From Sulfitobacter mediterraneus (lineage in GTDB: Bacteria; Pseudomonadota; Alphaproteobacteria; Rhodobacterales; Rhodobacteraceae), in the NCBI RefSeq assembly GCF_016801775.1, contig NZ_CP069004.1, forward strand, positions 3,100,001 to 3,164,000: a stretch of DNA of 64,000 bases. The letters run 5' to 3'. The position numbers were made by a program, and so were the translations under genes. Each line of letters begins with the position of its first letter. The first letter of the stretch is position 1. Shown here piece by piece: positions 41,655 to 61,336 of the stretch. The notes under the pieces are model-generated. The model saw only the letters and a list, made by a program, of their open reading frames with translations, did not search any database and was not told the origin of the DNA.

Positions 41655-43223
41655 TTAGCTCACGTCTTTGTAGCTGACCTCGCGTTTGTCCGTGCCGCCT
41701 TTTTCGCGGCGGACCAACAAACGGTTCAGTGCGTGCACATAGGCGCGGACCGATGCCACAACCGTGTCAGTGTCCGCCGATTGGCCTGTGACGATCCGAC
41801 CGTCCTCTTCCATGCGCACAGAAACCGTGGCCTGCGCATCTGTGCCCTCCGTCACCGCATGTACCTGATAAAGCTGCAAGCGCGCATCATGGGGCACAAT
41901 GGCTTTGACGCAGTTGAATGCTGCGTCCACAGGGCCATCGCCGGTCTGTTCGGTGCTGTGCTCCTCGCCGTTCACATCAAGCACCATCCGCGCCTGATTT
42001 GGGCCTTCGGTGCCGCAGATCACATGCATCGACTTGAGCTTGATCTGGTCTGCCTCGCTGTCGGTTGCGGTGCGCATGAGAGCGATGAGGTCGTCATCAT
42101 AGACCTCCTTCTTGCGATCGGCGAGTTCTTTGAACCGGACAAACACATCCTTGAGCTGGTTGTCGCCGAGCTCGAACCCGAGGTTCTCCAGCTTGGAGCG
42201 CAGCGCGGCCCGGCCCGAATGCTTGCCCATCACGATATTGGTTTCGGTCAGGCCCACATCTTCGGGGCGCATGATCTCGAAGGTTTCGGCGTTCTTGAGC
42301 ATACCGTCCTGGTGGATGCCGCTTTCGTGGGCAAAGGCGTTTTTGCCTACAATGGCCTTGTTAAATTGCACCGCAAAGCCAGACACCGCCGCGACGCGGC
42401 GCGAGATGTTCATGATCTTGGTGCTGTCGATGCCGGTCTGGAACGGCATGATGTCATTGCGCACTTTCAGGGCCATCACGACCTCTTCGAGCGCGGTGTT
42501 GCCCGCTCGTTCTCCAAGGCCGTTGATCGTGCACTCGATCTGGCGTGCACCCGCCTCAACCGCGGCAAGGCTGTTGGCGGTCGCCATGCCCAGATCGTTG
42601 TGGCAGTGGGTGGCAAAGATGATCTCATCCGCGCCGGGCACGTTTTCGAGCAGTTTTGCTATCAGATCGGCGCTTTCGCGCGGGGCGGTATAGCCAACGG
42701 TGTCGGGAATGTTGATCGTTGTCGCACCCGCCTTGATCGCGATTTCCACGACCCGGTAGAGGTAGTCCAATTCGGTGCGCGTGGCATCCATTGGCGACCA
42801 TTGCACATTGTCGCAAAGGTTGCGGGCGTGGGTTACGGTTTCGTGGATACGGTCGGCCATTTCGTCCATGGTCAGGTTCGGAATGGCGCGGTGCAGCGGC
42901 GAGGTGCCGATAAAAGTGTGGATGCGCGGCTGAGGGGCATGTTTCACCGCTTCCCAACAGCGGTCGATGTCGCCAAATTGCGCACGGGCCAACCCGCAAA
43001 TGACGCTGTTCTTGGACAGGCGGGCAATCTCGCTCACTGCGTTGAAGTCTCCTTCGGAGGCAATGGGAAAGCCGGCCTCGATGATATCGACGCCCATTTC
43101 GTCCAGAAGACCCGCAATTTCGAGCTTTTCGGCGTGGGTCATGGTCGCGCCGGGGGATTGTTCCCCATCGCGCAACGTGGTGTCAAAAATCAAGACGCGG
43201 TCTTGTTTGGATATATCTGTCAT
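41655..43223 (-). CDS. leuA: 2-isopropylmalate synthase
   Basis: 522 residues; condenses acetyl-CoA and 2-oxoisovalerate, the first committed step of leucine synthesis. VLIFDTTLRDGEQSPGATM is the HMGL/IPMS signature near the N-terminus. HCHNDLGMATANSLAAVEAGA contains the metal-binding His pair. ESGIHQDGMLKN is the acyl-CoA region near residue 300. A C-terminal LeuA dimerisation domain (from about residue 390) binds leucine for feedback control. The start ATG 43223 is chosen by family fit; ATG 43256 is an alternative. A leader peptide gene lies directly upstream. Confidence 0.96.
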   Translation of the reverse strand: MTDISKQDRVLIFDTTLRDGEQSPGATMTHAEKLEIAGLLDEMGVDIIEAGFPIASEGDFNAVSEIARLSKNSVICGLARAQFGDIDRCWEAVKHAPQPRIHTFIGTSPLHRAIPNLTMDEMADRIHETVTHARNLCDNVQWSPMDATRTELDYLYRVVEIAIKAGATTINIPDTVGYTAPRESADLIAKLLENVPGADEIIFATHCHNDLGMATANSLAAVEAGARQIECTINGLGERAGNTALEEVVMALKVRNDIMPFQTGIDSTKIMNISRRVAAVSGFAVQFNKAIVGKNAFAHESGIHQDGMLKNAETFEIMRPEDVGLTETNIVMGKHSGRAALRSKLENLGFELGDNQLKDVFVRFKELADRKKEVYDDDLIALMRTATDSEADQIKLKSMHVICGTEGPNQARMVLDVNGEEHSTEQTGDGPVDAAFNCVKAIVPHDARLQLYQVHAVTEGTDAQATVSVRMEEDGRIVTGQSADTDTVVASVRAYVHALNRLLVRREKGGTDKREVSYKDVS

Positions 43224-43257
43224 GTCTGGGTCTTTCTTGTCTGCTTTGAAATCCATT

Positions 43258-43360
43258 GGCGCGCGGCACATCCCCCTGAGCGGGCGCGCCGGAATGGCAC
43301 GCTCAGAGGCGGATTAGTAGCAGCAGGTTGGCACGCAGCATGGCCGCGCAGGGGCGCGGC
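43258..43360 (-). promoter_or_regulatory. Probable leuA attenuator region (overlapping hairpins)
   Basis: Three inverted repeats are visible on the minus strand. Hairpin 1 (43360-43343) is a perfect 7-bp stem inside the leader gene. Hairpin 2 (43305-43277) pairs TGAGCG with CGCTCA and includes the leader stop. Hairpin 3 (43290-43258) pairs GCGCGCC with GGCGCGC. Hairpins 2 and 3 share bases and cannot form together. No U-tract follows hairpin 3, so a classical intrinsic terminator is not evident; Rho-dependent or translational control is possible. Confidence 0.5.
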
Positions 43361-43389
43361 AGGGTTGGGATATGGGCGGCGTGTGTCAT
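43303..43389 (-). CDS. Leucine leader peptide (leuA attenuator)
   Basis: 28-codon ORF starting at ATG 43389, ending in LLLLIRL before a TGA stop. Five of its last seven codons are Leu (CTG CTG CTA CTA ATC CGC CTC). The two CTA codons are rare in GC-rich genomes. It ends 79 bases upstream of leuA. Leucine-rich leader peptides upstream of leuA are an established attenuation device in proteobacteria: a ribosome stalled at Leu codons selects which hairpin forms. The amino-acid bias and position are seen directly; regulation is inferred. Confidence 0.75.
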   Translation of the reverse strand: MTHAAHIPTLPRPCAAMLRANLLLLIRL

Positions 43390-43397
43390 GGGGCGTA

Positions 43398-43425
43398 GTT
43401 ATACCGGTGCATTTGCAAATGGAAA
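43398..43425 (-). promoter_or_regulatory. Probable promoter of the leader-leuA transcript
   Basis: On the minus strand TTTCCA (43425-43420), 16 bases, then TATAAC (43403-43398). The start site would fall near 43391, so the leader mRNA would begin at or within a few bases of the ATG at 43389. A perfect 12-bp palindrome CATTTGCAAATG (43410-43421) overlaps the -35 edge and spacer and may be an operator. Confidence 0.45.
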
Positions 43426-43528
43426 GGGGGTGAATGATCTTTGTTGTTGCGAGCGTGGCGCGGGGGTGGCTGAGTTATTTGGTCAAATGAAAGATTGATC
43501 CGCGTCTTTGCACCGCTAGTTCCGGGAT

Positions 43529-44194
43529 ATGAGAGATGTTTTGATCATTGGGTCCAGCGGCGGGATCGGTTCGGCACTGGTGCAGGCACATCAGGCACGC
43601 GGGGATCGTGTGGTGGGCCTGTCGCGGTCCGGCGACGGGTTCGATGTGACGGACCCTGTCAGCGTTGCGCATCATTTGGGGCGGCTGGCGGGGCCGTTTG
43701 ATCAGGTGATTGTCGCCAGCGGCGCGTTGGAGATTGGCGGCGCGGCGCCGGAAAAGACCATTCGTGCGGTGCGCAAGGACGCGATAATGGATCAATTTGC
43801 GCTCAATGCGGTTGGTCCGGCGCTGGTATTGGCACAGGCGCATAAGTTGCTGCCCAAGGACCGCCAGGCGGTTTTTGCGGTCTTGTCGGCGCGGGTGGGG
43901 TCGATTGGCGACAACCGTTTGGGGGGTTGGATCAGCTATCGCAGTGCCAAGGCGGCGGTGAACCAGATTGTACATACGGCAGCGATCGAATTGTCCCGCA
44001 GCCATCCGCAGAGCATCTGCGTGGCGCTGCATCCAGGCACCGTGGCCACGCCGTTTACCGAAGCCTATCTGGGCCGCCATCCCGCAGTACCAGCGGAGGA
44101 AGCGGCACAGAATCTGCTGGGTGTGATGGATGGGCTGACCCCTTCGCAAACGGGTGGGTTTTTTGATTGGTCGGGCGCAGAGGTGCCGTGGTGA
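43529..44194 (+). CDS. SDR family oxidoreductase
   Basis: 221 residues. VLIIGSSGGIGSALVQAHQARG gives the GxxxGxG nucleotide-binding loop, VFAVLSARVGSIGDN the catalytic Ser region, and WISYRSAKAAVNQIVH the YxxxK motif. It is a classical short-chain dehydrogenase with unknown substrate. Its stop overlaps the photolyase start by four bases (GTGA), so the two are tightly coupled. Confidence 0.9.
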   Translation: MRDVLIIGSSGGIGSALVQAHQARGDRVVGLSRSGDGFDVTDPVSVAHHLGRLAGPFDQVIVASGALEIGGAAPEKTIRAVRKDAIMDQFALNAVGPALVLAQAHKLLPKDRQAVFAVLSARVGSIGDNRLGGWISYRSAKAAVNQIVHTAAIELSRSHPQSICVALHPGTVATPFTEAYLGRHPAVPAEEAAQNLLGVMDGLTPSQTGGFFDWSGAEVPW

Positions 44195-56672: not shown

Positions 56673-56686
56673 TATAGCCAACCGTC

Positions 56687-56846
56687 ATGGGAGAATCGGC
56701 AGAGCGCCGGTGCCGAAGGAGCAACCGCCCCGGAAACTCTCAGGCCACAAGGACCGTGGCGGGCATACGACACTCTGGAGAGTGGTGCGAGCGGCACCCG
56801 CCGAAGGGATAACGATCTCAGGCGAAAGGACAGAGGGGGCATCGTG
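56687..56846 (+). promoter_or_regulatory. Tandem glycine riboswitch (two gcvT aptamers)
   Basis: Aptamer 1 covers about 56687-56770, with the gcvT-element features GGGAGA, the GCCG-rich stem, GAAGGAGCAACCGCC and CTCAGG. Aptamer 2 covers about 56771-56846 with GGAGAGTG, GCCGAAGGGATAACGATCTC and AGGCGAAAGGACAGAG. Two aptamers in series before gcvT is the known architecture; glycine binding turns on the cleavage system. The conserved cores are visible by eye, but the linker and pairing were not computed. Confidence 0.93.
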
Positions 56847-56890: not shown

Positions 56891-56921
56891 CATCCGGTTG
56901 AACAAGGGGACACACCGGATG
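56891..56921 (+). promoter_or_regulatory. Start-codon hairpin of gcvT (likely riboswitch expression platform)
   Basis: CATCCGG (56891-56897) pairs perfectly with CCGGATG (56915-56921), so the gcvT ATG (56919-56921) is in the stem and the AAGGGGA Shine-Dalgarno in the loop. CCGGTTGA occurs twice (56872-56879 and 56894-56901), so the upstream copy could compete for the same partner. This suggests translational control by the riboswitch. Confidence 0.55.
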
Positions 56922-58043
56922 AGCGATCTGAACCGCACACCACTTTTTGATCTGCATGTTGAGCTAGGCGCCAAGATGGTGCCCTTCGCGGGCTATGAAA
57001 TGCCCGTGCAATATCCGCTTGGCGTGATGAAGGAACACCAGCATACCCGCGAGGCCGCAGGTCTGTTCGACGTCAGCCACATGGGCCAGGTGATCCTGTC
57101 GGGCCCGTCATGGGAGGCGGTCGCAACAGCGTTTGAAACACTGGTGCCGATGGATGTGCTGGGGCTGGGCGATGGCCGGCAGCGCTATGGGTTGTTCACC
57201 AATGACGCTGGCGGAATCGAAGATGATCTGATGTTTGCCCGGCGCGGCGATGATCTGTTCGTGGTGGTGAACGCTGCGTGCAAGACGGCCGATATTGCCC
57301 GCATGAAGGCGGCGCTCGAACCTGAGATCACCGTGACTGCCTTGACGGATCGCGCGCTGATCGCGGTGCAGGGGCCTGGCGCAGAGGCGGCGGTTGCCGC
57401 GATGGATGCCGCGGCGGCAGATATGACGTTTATGGATGTGCGAGACCTGACACTGGACGGGATCGCGGTTTGGGCCTCCCGGTCCGGCTATACAGGCGAG
57501 GACGGCTATGAAATTTCCGTGCCTGAGGCGCAGGCCGAAGCGCTGACGCGCAAGCTGTTGGCGCAAGACGGGGTCGAGGCGATTGGCCTTGGCGCACGGG
57601 ATTCCCTGCGCCTTGAGGCCGGGCTTTGCCTTTATGGACATGACATCGACGCCACAACTAACCCTGTCGAGGGCGCATTGAACTGGGCCGTGCAAAAGGT
57701 ACGCCGTGCAGGCGGCGACCGCGCTGGCGGGTTTCCGGGCGCAGAGCCCGTGATGGCCGCCTTTGAAAACGGCGCCGCCCGCAAGCGTGTGGGGCTGTTG
57801 CCTGAAGGACGCGCCCCGATGCGCGAAGGCGTGGCGATTTTTGATGCGGCCGAAGGTGGCACACAGGTTGGCACGGTCACTTCCGGCGGTTTTGGCCCGA
57901 CTTTCGGCGGGCCGGTCGCGATGGGATATGTCGCCACAGAGCACAGCAAAATTGGCACGCCTCTTTGGGGCGAGGTCCGCGGCAAACGTCTGCCATTGAC
58001 GATTGCCAAGCTGCCCTTTGTAGCGGCAAACTTCAAAAGATAA
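56919..58043 (+). CDS. gcvT: Aminomethyltransferase (glycine cleavage T protein)
   Basis: 374-residue T protein; transfers the methylene carbon from aminomethyl-lipoyl-H to tetrahydrofolate, releasing ammonia. [25 protein letters not shown] and [17 protein letters not shown] are the N-terminal signature; [17 protein letters not shown] is the folate-binding region; [18 protein letters not shown] follows. ATG 56919 fits the family and lies in a hairpin that may control translation. First gene of gcvT-gcvH-gcvP. Confidence 0.96.
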
Positions 58044-58431: not shown

Positions 58432-58480
58432 CCCGCCGGGGATGCCTCCGGCGGGAATATTTACAGCCAAAAAGAAAAGG
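58432..58480 (+). repeat. Dispersed 3' element, copy D (between gcvH and gcvP)
   Basis: CCCGCCGG (58432-58439) pairs with CCGGCGGG (58448-58455), then the tail AATATTTACAGCCAAAAAGAAAA. The pattern of hairpin, ATATT and CAAAAGAAA matches copies A-C. It is in the sense orientation of gcvH and separates it from gcvP, so it may also affect relative expression within the operon. Confidence 0.65.
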
Positions 58481-58489
58481 GCGGGTGCC

Positions 58490-61336
<2,847 letters not shown>

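Follow-up and report, generated by a model that had tools for sequence, protein, structure and literature searches.

Attenuation by leucine has long been known, and in the usual picture a terminator follows a leader that is led by a Shine–Dalgarno (SD) sequence. The gammaproteobacterial leu leader (Rfam family Leu_leader) combines a run of Leu codons with alternative hairpins before leuA. In mycobacteria, the speed of the ribosome at Cys sensor codons reportedly controls translation of the next gene, as found by experiment. The ORFs concerned are leaderless polycysteine ORFs that attenuate the gene behind them (Canestrari et al., 2020, as presented in passages of PMC9031893). In Actinobacteria, an element named LEU has been described upstream of leuA (Seliverstov et al., 2005; PMC1262725). 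In the passages of that paper cited here, its authors considered translation of the leader to be an unlikely sensor, citing Streptomyces coelicolor mutants. According to passages of PMC7298713 and PMC10117765, the attenuator ORF trpL of Sinorhizobium meliloti is leaderless, its transcript beginning directly at the AUG. Passages of PMC1273637 cite Vitreschak et al. (2004) for an alphaproteobacterial ilvB leader, and a survey that includes a Rhodobacterales genome describes a cysS uORF with a terminator U-run, leuA being absent from its main text (PMC8632094). A literature search returned no paper on a Rhodobacterales leuA leader; an earlier mention in supplements or in Vitreschak et al. (2004) is possible.

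The locus described here lies in a window of 64,000 nucleotides from Sulfitobacter mediterraneus, which is the whole stretch of DNA that was analysed. Its genome measures 4.2 Mb, and the nearest named relative found for its LeuA comes from a Sulfitobacter MAG (91%), which suggests a Roseobacter-type member of the Rhodobacteraceae. In this window, leuA occupies 41655–43223 on the minus strand with its ATG at 43223; it encodes 522 amino acids and passes the NCBIfam cut-offs for 2-isopropylmalate synthase. An earlier, sequence-only reading had pointed to a 28-codon, Leu-rich ORF 79 bases upstream of leuA, with five Leu codons among its last seven, two of them the rare CTA. Sequence, coordinates and codon usage agree with this. 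The ORF runs from 43389 to 43303 on the minus strand, between leuA and a divergent SDR-like gene at 43529–44194 on the plus strand that reaches no NCBIfam cut-off. It translates to MTHAAHIPTLPRPCAAMLRANLLLLIRL followed by a stop, and the gap from this stop to the leuA ATG is 79 nt. The features of the locus are the following.

43420..43425, minus strand: −35 element TTTCCA (family consensus TTTTCAT, 16-nt spacer to the −10)
43398..43403, minus strand: −10 element TATAAC, 8 nt before the leader ATG
43389, minus strand: predicted transcription start, the A of the leader ATG, from promoter spacing
43303..43389, minus strand: leucine leader peptide ORF, 28 codons, ending in LLLLIRL
43369..43374, minus strand: CATATC (His-Ile codons), +16 to +21 of the leader, conserved at the nucleotide level
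43315..43326, minus strand: sensor codons CTG CTG CTA CTA, forming most of the helix C 5′ strand
43311..43325, minus strand: helix C 5′ strand, Leu codons and AATCC
43273..43309, minus strand: hairpin A (2:3), with the leader stop codon within its 5′ arm
43258..43290, minus strand: hairpin B (3:4), GGCGCGC/GCGCGCC, without U-tract
43238..43254, minus strand: helix C 3′ strand, GGATT...AGCAG.CA, its end adjoining the leuA SD
43230..43237, minus strand: SD-like sequence of leuA, AAGAAAGA, about 7 nt before the ATG

The final seven leader codons read CTG CTG CTA CTA ATC CGC CTC. CTA is rare in this background, making up 1.4% of the Leu codons in 39 mechanically chosen ORFs of the window and 0.7% of those in the leuA genes of relatives. 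Upstream regions of leuA were collected from 190 loci, 189 of which have a recognisable LeuA start (L083 does not); 184 of these regions are distinct. In 164 of the 189, the last eight codons of a frame that closes with a stop include four or more Leu, vs 1.9% of dinucleotide shuffles. The peptide typically ends in LLLL[S/T/I]RL or near it. A comparison with relatives, which the sequence-only reading had proposed as a check, finds the Leu run, the stop codon and hairpins A and B kept, while the N-terminal part of the peptide mostly varies, except for a common His-Ile at residues 6–7. In short, codons for the end product form a run in a small ORF upstream of the gene for its biosynthesis; the leucine leader before leuA is confirmed as genuine and beyond chance.

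For the pairing tests described below, 133 of 149 core leaders were used. Left out were L085–L110 except L093, which mostly belong to other orders, as well as loci with no recognisable 3′ arm of hairpin A or at an unusual distance from leuA. The fourth codon before the stop encodes Leu in all 133, which is partly due to selection, since this set was picked for at least three Leu in the last eight codons. The choice among Leu codons is unaffected by that selection: of the 133 leaders, 83 have CTT and 47 have CTA at this position, vs 7.5% and 0.7% of the Leu codons in the leuA genes. A separate observation concerns the conserved His codon, which is CAT in 65 leaders and CAC in 5, though the leuA genes of the relatives use these codons at 46% and 54%. 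Pairing of CATATC with the leuA start or with the region before leuA was considered and found unconvincing (z −1.4 and −2.1).

A covariance model was built from 56 aligned sequences out of 106 non-redundant ones. It matches one place in the genome that contains the window and has one match each in 117 of 120 genomes of the family, the other three having none; 38 of the 120 had given sequences to the model, and 79 of the remaining 82 match. Class-wide and under strict filters, 37 of 385 genomes match at an E-value of 0.1 or better and 348 do not. The 30 loci taken from the best class-wide matches all have a LeuA start, and a leader-like pattern occurs in 20 of 25 loci of other groups that were chosen by LeuA alone (L085–L110 without L093). 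Because of these class-wide LeuA matches and other-group loci, the leader together with hairpin A seems to predate the family. Of the 45 outgroup loci that have the leader pattern, 39 show an A-like arm after the leader stop.

Identity with a known Rfam family, Leu_leader included, was considered and rejected, as the leader has no match to an Rfam covariance model. At the gathering threshold, the whole window gave only a glycine riboswitch elsewhere and no Leu_leader match, and a scan of 14 of the 220 loci gave one tRNA and no leader family; positions 43100–43550, searched up to an E-value of 10, gave one weak match on the opposite strand. The glycine riboswitch, at 56678–56766 on the plus strand and above the Rfam gathering score, sits 5′ of a gcvT-like (56898–58043) and a gcvP-like (58442–61336) ORF, both named by eye.

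The leader had also been read as nearly leaderless, and this arrangement is conserved among the relatives in promoter spacing and in the general lack of an SD. In the window, TACGCCCC separates TATAAC from the leader ATG. The −10 element was called without reference to the ATG, after which the next in-frame ATG was located; 7 of the 149 core leaders gave no −10 call. The ATG lies 6–8 nt past the −10 in 127 of the 149 homologues (11, 73 and 43 at 6, 7 and 8 nt, respectively), vs 3.1% in shuffles. Two further statistics refer to the 121 of 133 sequences whose ATG lies 5–9 nt past the −10 and are conditional on that spacing, the unconditional figure being 127/149: the base preceding the leader ATG is a pyrimidine in 117 of these 121 aligned promoters, and an SD energy of −4 kcal/mol or lower is found for 13% of leader ATGs (n = 121), vs 81% of leuA ATGs (n = 133). 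Such an energy occurs in 24% of shuffled stretches before leuA. A pyrimidine at −1 is the usual −1/+1 pattern of transcription start sites. The −35 of the 121 aligned promoters reads TTTTCAT, unlike TTGACA, and its first T is present in all 121, although the −10 calling scored likeness to TTTTCA, so that this conservation is partly by selection. Since the ATG lies 6–8 nt past the −10 and an SD is mostly absent, unlike for leuA, the leader ORF is probably leaderless, with a transcript that starts at its own AUG.

Between the leader stop and leuA, two mutually exclusive hairpins had been proposed, and their coordinates agree with those found here. The arms of hairpin A are CCTCTGAGCG (43309–43300) and CGCTCAGGGG (43282–43273), those of hairpin B are GGCGCGC (43290–43284) and GCGCGCC (43264–43258). 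The inner stem of A, GUGCC/GGCGC, occupies the 5′ arm of B; the hairpins have bases in common and therefore exclude each other. Hairpin A is almost invariant across relatives, which leaves little covariation available. RNAalifold on a MAFFT alignment, in which the 3′ strand of helix C is poorly aligned, returned hairpin A only, with little covariation, and neither B nor C. Hairpin B does covary: true partners pair better in 43 and worse in 21 of 64 nonzero contrasts between nearest relatives. A further proposal, a 7-bp hairpin within the ORF, stood for the window only. It is present there at 43360–43343, and shuffles of the window's 5′ leader fold less well than the leader itself (z −2.3). In relatives, however, conservation is absent (mean z −0.4 over 109 of them), and a conserved in-ORF hairpin was rejected. 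In four loci (L074, L084, L059 and L185), an additional hairpin-like insert was seen by eye between B and the 3′ strand of helix C; the helix C partner is still near leuA despite the insert.

The same reading had doubted classical attenuation for want of a U-tract, and the relatives bear this out. Hairpin B lacks a subsequent U-tract in those 127 of the 133 relatives for which a pattern search located its 3′ arm: the next 8 nt contain 1.2 T on average and zero T in 48 of the 127. A simple terminator scan of the window found no terminator-like site at hairpin B. A classical transcription attenuator was therefore rejected: the GC-rich hairpin is present, but a classical intrinsic terminator at B is contradicted by the absent U-tract. 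Transcriptional attenuation could also take another form, in which hairpin B, or the untranslated RNA freed by it, leads to Rho-dependent or weak intrinsic termination that helix C tunes. A leader stop placed within the 5′ arm of hairpin A matches the textbook layout of antiterminator and terminator, the A-like arm recurs in the outgroup loci, B covaries, and C exceeds G (ratios of 1.46 in the leader and 1.15 in the stretch before leuA), as would suit a Rho-type step. However, B has no U-tract in the relatives, and the 3′ strand of helix C, which the polymerase reaches only after B, is anchored to the start codon of the first gene. Moreover, the intrinsic-termination attenuator described for Rhodobacterales in the passages of PMC8632094, the cysS uORF, does have a U-run. 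Altogether, this form of attenuation is considered rather unlikely, though it is the strongest competitor of the translational mechanism.

Helix C is a new element that was missed in the first reading of the sequence. In this helix, a segment immediately 5′ of the leuA SD is paired with the Leu codons and the next codon. Such pairing favours the translational mechanism that had been offered as one alternative to classical attenuation. The minimum-energy fold of the window contains hairpin A and helix C, and the window's own fold is unexceptional compared to shuffles (z −1.55 and −0.46). Across the 133 sequences, the mean pairing energy of helix C with its own partners beat each of 20,000 permutations (z −12.9). 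In disjoint pairs of nearest relatives, 50 of 63 contrasts favour the true partner and 13 are opposed (Wilcoxon p 9e-8). Five control segment pairs gave p-values of 0.07 to 0.9 in the nearest-relative test, and one control reached p 0.03 with random pairs. In the permutation test, the controls other than the antisense strand had z-values from +0.3 to −2.2, hence not uniformly zero. The antisense-strand control also scored (z −10), since Watson–Crick pairing is symmetric, and is uninformative on the strand. An ungapped stem of at least 7 bp is present in only 61 of the 133 sequences, where 13% would be expected. In these 61, the median distance between the end of the 3′ strand and the leuA ATG is 18 nt (MAD 2), a value that is bounded by the search being confined to the 45 nt before leuA. 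The distance of helix C from the leader stop, by contrast, increases as the total spacing does (slope 0.85). When leuA is the first gene, helix C thus mostly ends upstream of the SD, at about 18 nt before the ATG.

Leu codons such as CTC-CTT could give rise to helix C as a mere by-product, as CTCCTT resembles the anti-SD and might pair with any purine-rich region before a gene. The own-vs-swapped signal is indeed weaker in the outgroups (z −3.5, reached by 5 of 5000 permutations, n = 45). Compensatory changes occur in the helix, for instance TCCTTAGC/GCTAAGGA, TCCTAAGCC/GGCTTAGGA, TTCTTACGCT/AGCGTAAGAA and CTACTAAGC/GCTTAGTAG, and the covariation extends beyond SD-like bases, as in CTTACGC/GCGTAAG, CTAAGC/GCTTAG, CTTAGTCG/CGACTAAG and CTAATC/GATTAG. 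As this covariation exceeds the SD-like bases and swapped partners pair worse, a by-product is hardly credible.

Some genomes offer a natural swap, which links the pairing to the initiation of translation. In L014, L034, L052, L193, L221–L224 and L230, a small cupin gene (about 118 aa; Cupin_2 domain in the one member scanned) lies between the leader and leuA. In 7 of the 8 resolved loci, the Leu codons pair with the cupin SD in stems of 7–11 bp (G-U allowed) that end 5–10 nt before the cupin start codon; stems of at least 7 bp occur in 8% of shuffles. L221 has a stem of 5 bp only. In L223, which is outside the 8 resolved loci, TCCTAACC/GGTTAGGA was found by eye before the cupin ATG, and in L064 the cupin is present but the leader was not located. 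This pairing with the cupin SD indicates that helix C tracks the start of the first gene and not leuA as such.

A protein-binding site, or a trans-acting small RNA or peptide, with the Leu codons being incidental, would be another way to explain the locus. It would fit with the almost invariant sequence of hairpin A and with S. meliloti trpL, which yields a trans-acting RNA and a peptide according to passages of PMC7298713. Yet it is the Leu codons that are kept, most of the N-terminal part of the peptide being variable, the geometry suits a ribosome at the early Leu codons or at the stop, and the pairing follows the SD of the first gene; this explanation is therefore regarded as very unlikely.

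To describe the states that the RNA may adopt, the 133 sequences were folded with an assumed ribosome footprint blocked. In these computations, stalling at the first two Leu codons gives hairpin A, a ribosome at the stop gives B, and the ribosome-free RNA contains A together with C. Helix C has at least 6 bp in 99 of the 133 free RNAs, and in 95 of those 99 it drops below 2 bp on stalling. Some of the computed states are at odds with the mechanism proposed below: a stall at the third or fourth Leu codon mostly gives B (means of 3.1 and 0.2 bp for A, and of 4.8 and 6.5 bp for B). A full A-to-B switch, by set thresholds, is computed for 74 of the 133. In genomes with leuA first, stalling is predicted to raise SD openness only modestly (0.57 to 0.65), and that of the 18 nt upstream by more (0.42 to 0.58). 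The openness of the leuA start region is 0.62 with the ribosome at the stop vs 0.63 with a stalled one. As a ribosome at the stop opens the start as much as a stalled one does, only the dwell time of the ribosome would discriminate in a model with helix C alone.

The proposed mechanism is as follows. Transcription would begin at the leader's own AUG, and ribosomes would translate the leaderless ORF. When charged leucyl-tRNA is scarce, a ribosome would presumably stall early on the Leu codons; hairpin A could then form, helix C would be physically prevented and leuA would be translated. With ample leucine, the ribosome would reach the stop in the 5′ arm of A, blocking A and letting B form. After release of the ribosome, the Leu codons would be free, so that helix C could re-form and lower initiation at leuA. 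The locus is, in all, probably a ribosome-mediated leucine attenuator that acts at least partly on translation of the first downstream gene. Comparison of related sequences shows the conserved leader, the spacing between −10 and ATG, the lack of an SD for the leader, the covariation of B and C, the anchoring of C to the start of the first gene and the missing U-tract. The folding states are computed ones, and stalling, the regulatory output and the controlling step, initiation alone or together with premature termination, are inferred. Conservation of A and B goes beyond what helix C needs and is not required by a model with C alone; it is the best argument for a second step and may point to transcriptional control as well.

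It is more tentatively suggested, at somewhat less than even chances, that throughout the family the sensor codons double as a lock on the start of the first gene, the choice of CUU or CUA at the fourth codon before the stop being selected for pairing and the cupin SD being matched where the cupin comes first. While the usual picture of leucine attenuation involves an SD-led leader and a terminator, this family appears to use a leaderless leader and a lock built from the sensor codons, and the small ORF is found in nearly all family genomes examined. If true, this switch and the LEU element would be convergent members of one class ('sensor codon = anti-SD') that is supplied by leaderless translation, and the family would offer testable cases of leaderless translation in Alphaproteobacteria.

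The gammaproteobacterial Leu_leader differs from the locus described here, which has no Rfam match, a hairpin B without U-tract and a leader that mostly has no SD. S. meliloti trpL is, like this leader, an alphaproteobacterial amino-acid leader with a transcript starting at the AUG (here predicted), but in the passages of its papers it responds to Trp and is a transcription attenuator with a terminator. The closest known systems are the actinobacterial LEU element and the mycobacterial polycysteine leaderless ORFs. As far as the passages of PMC1262725 describe it, the LEU element likewise has a leader with Leu codons before leuA, a base stem between Leu codons and the leuA SD, and alternative inner structures. 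In the present family too, the Leu run pairs with the leuA SD region, though in leuA-first genomes mostly just upstream of the SD. The LEU element, likened here by description, is presented as a pseudoknot, whereas A and B are ordinary hairpins with the leader stop in A; it occurs in Actinobacteria, a different phylum, and a leaderless start is not mentioned in those passages. The mycobacterial ORFs resemble the present one in being leaderless, as is probable here, and in that the speed of the ribosome at the sensor codons controls, or here would control, translation of the next gene. They differ in sensing cysteine, in belonging to another phylum and in being experimentally established, whereas the leucine case is inferred from comparison. 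In this alphaproteobacterial case, a probably leaderless leader and a predicted A/B switch occur together with base pairing between the sensor codons and the region where the next gene starts, a combination for which the literature search returned no paper.
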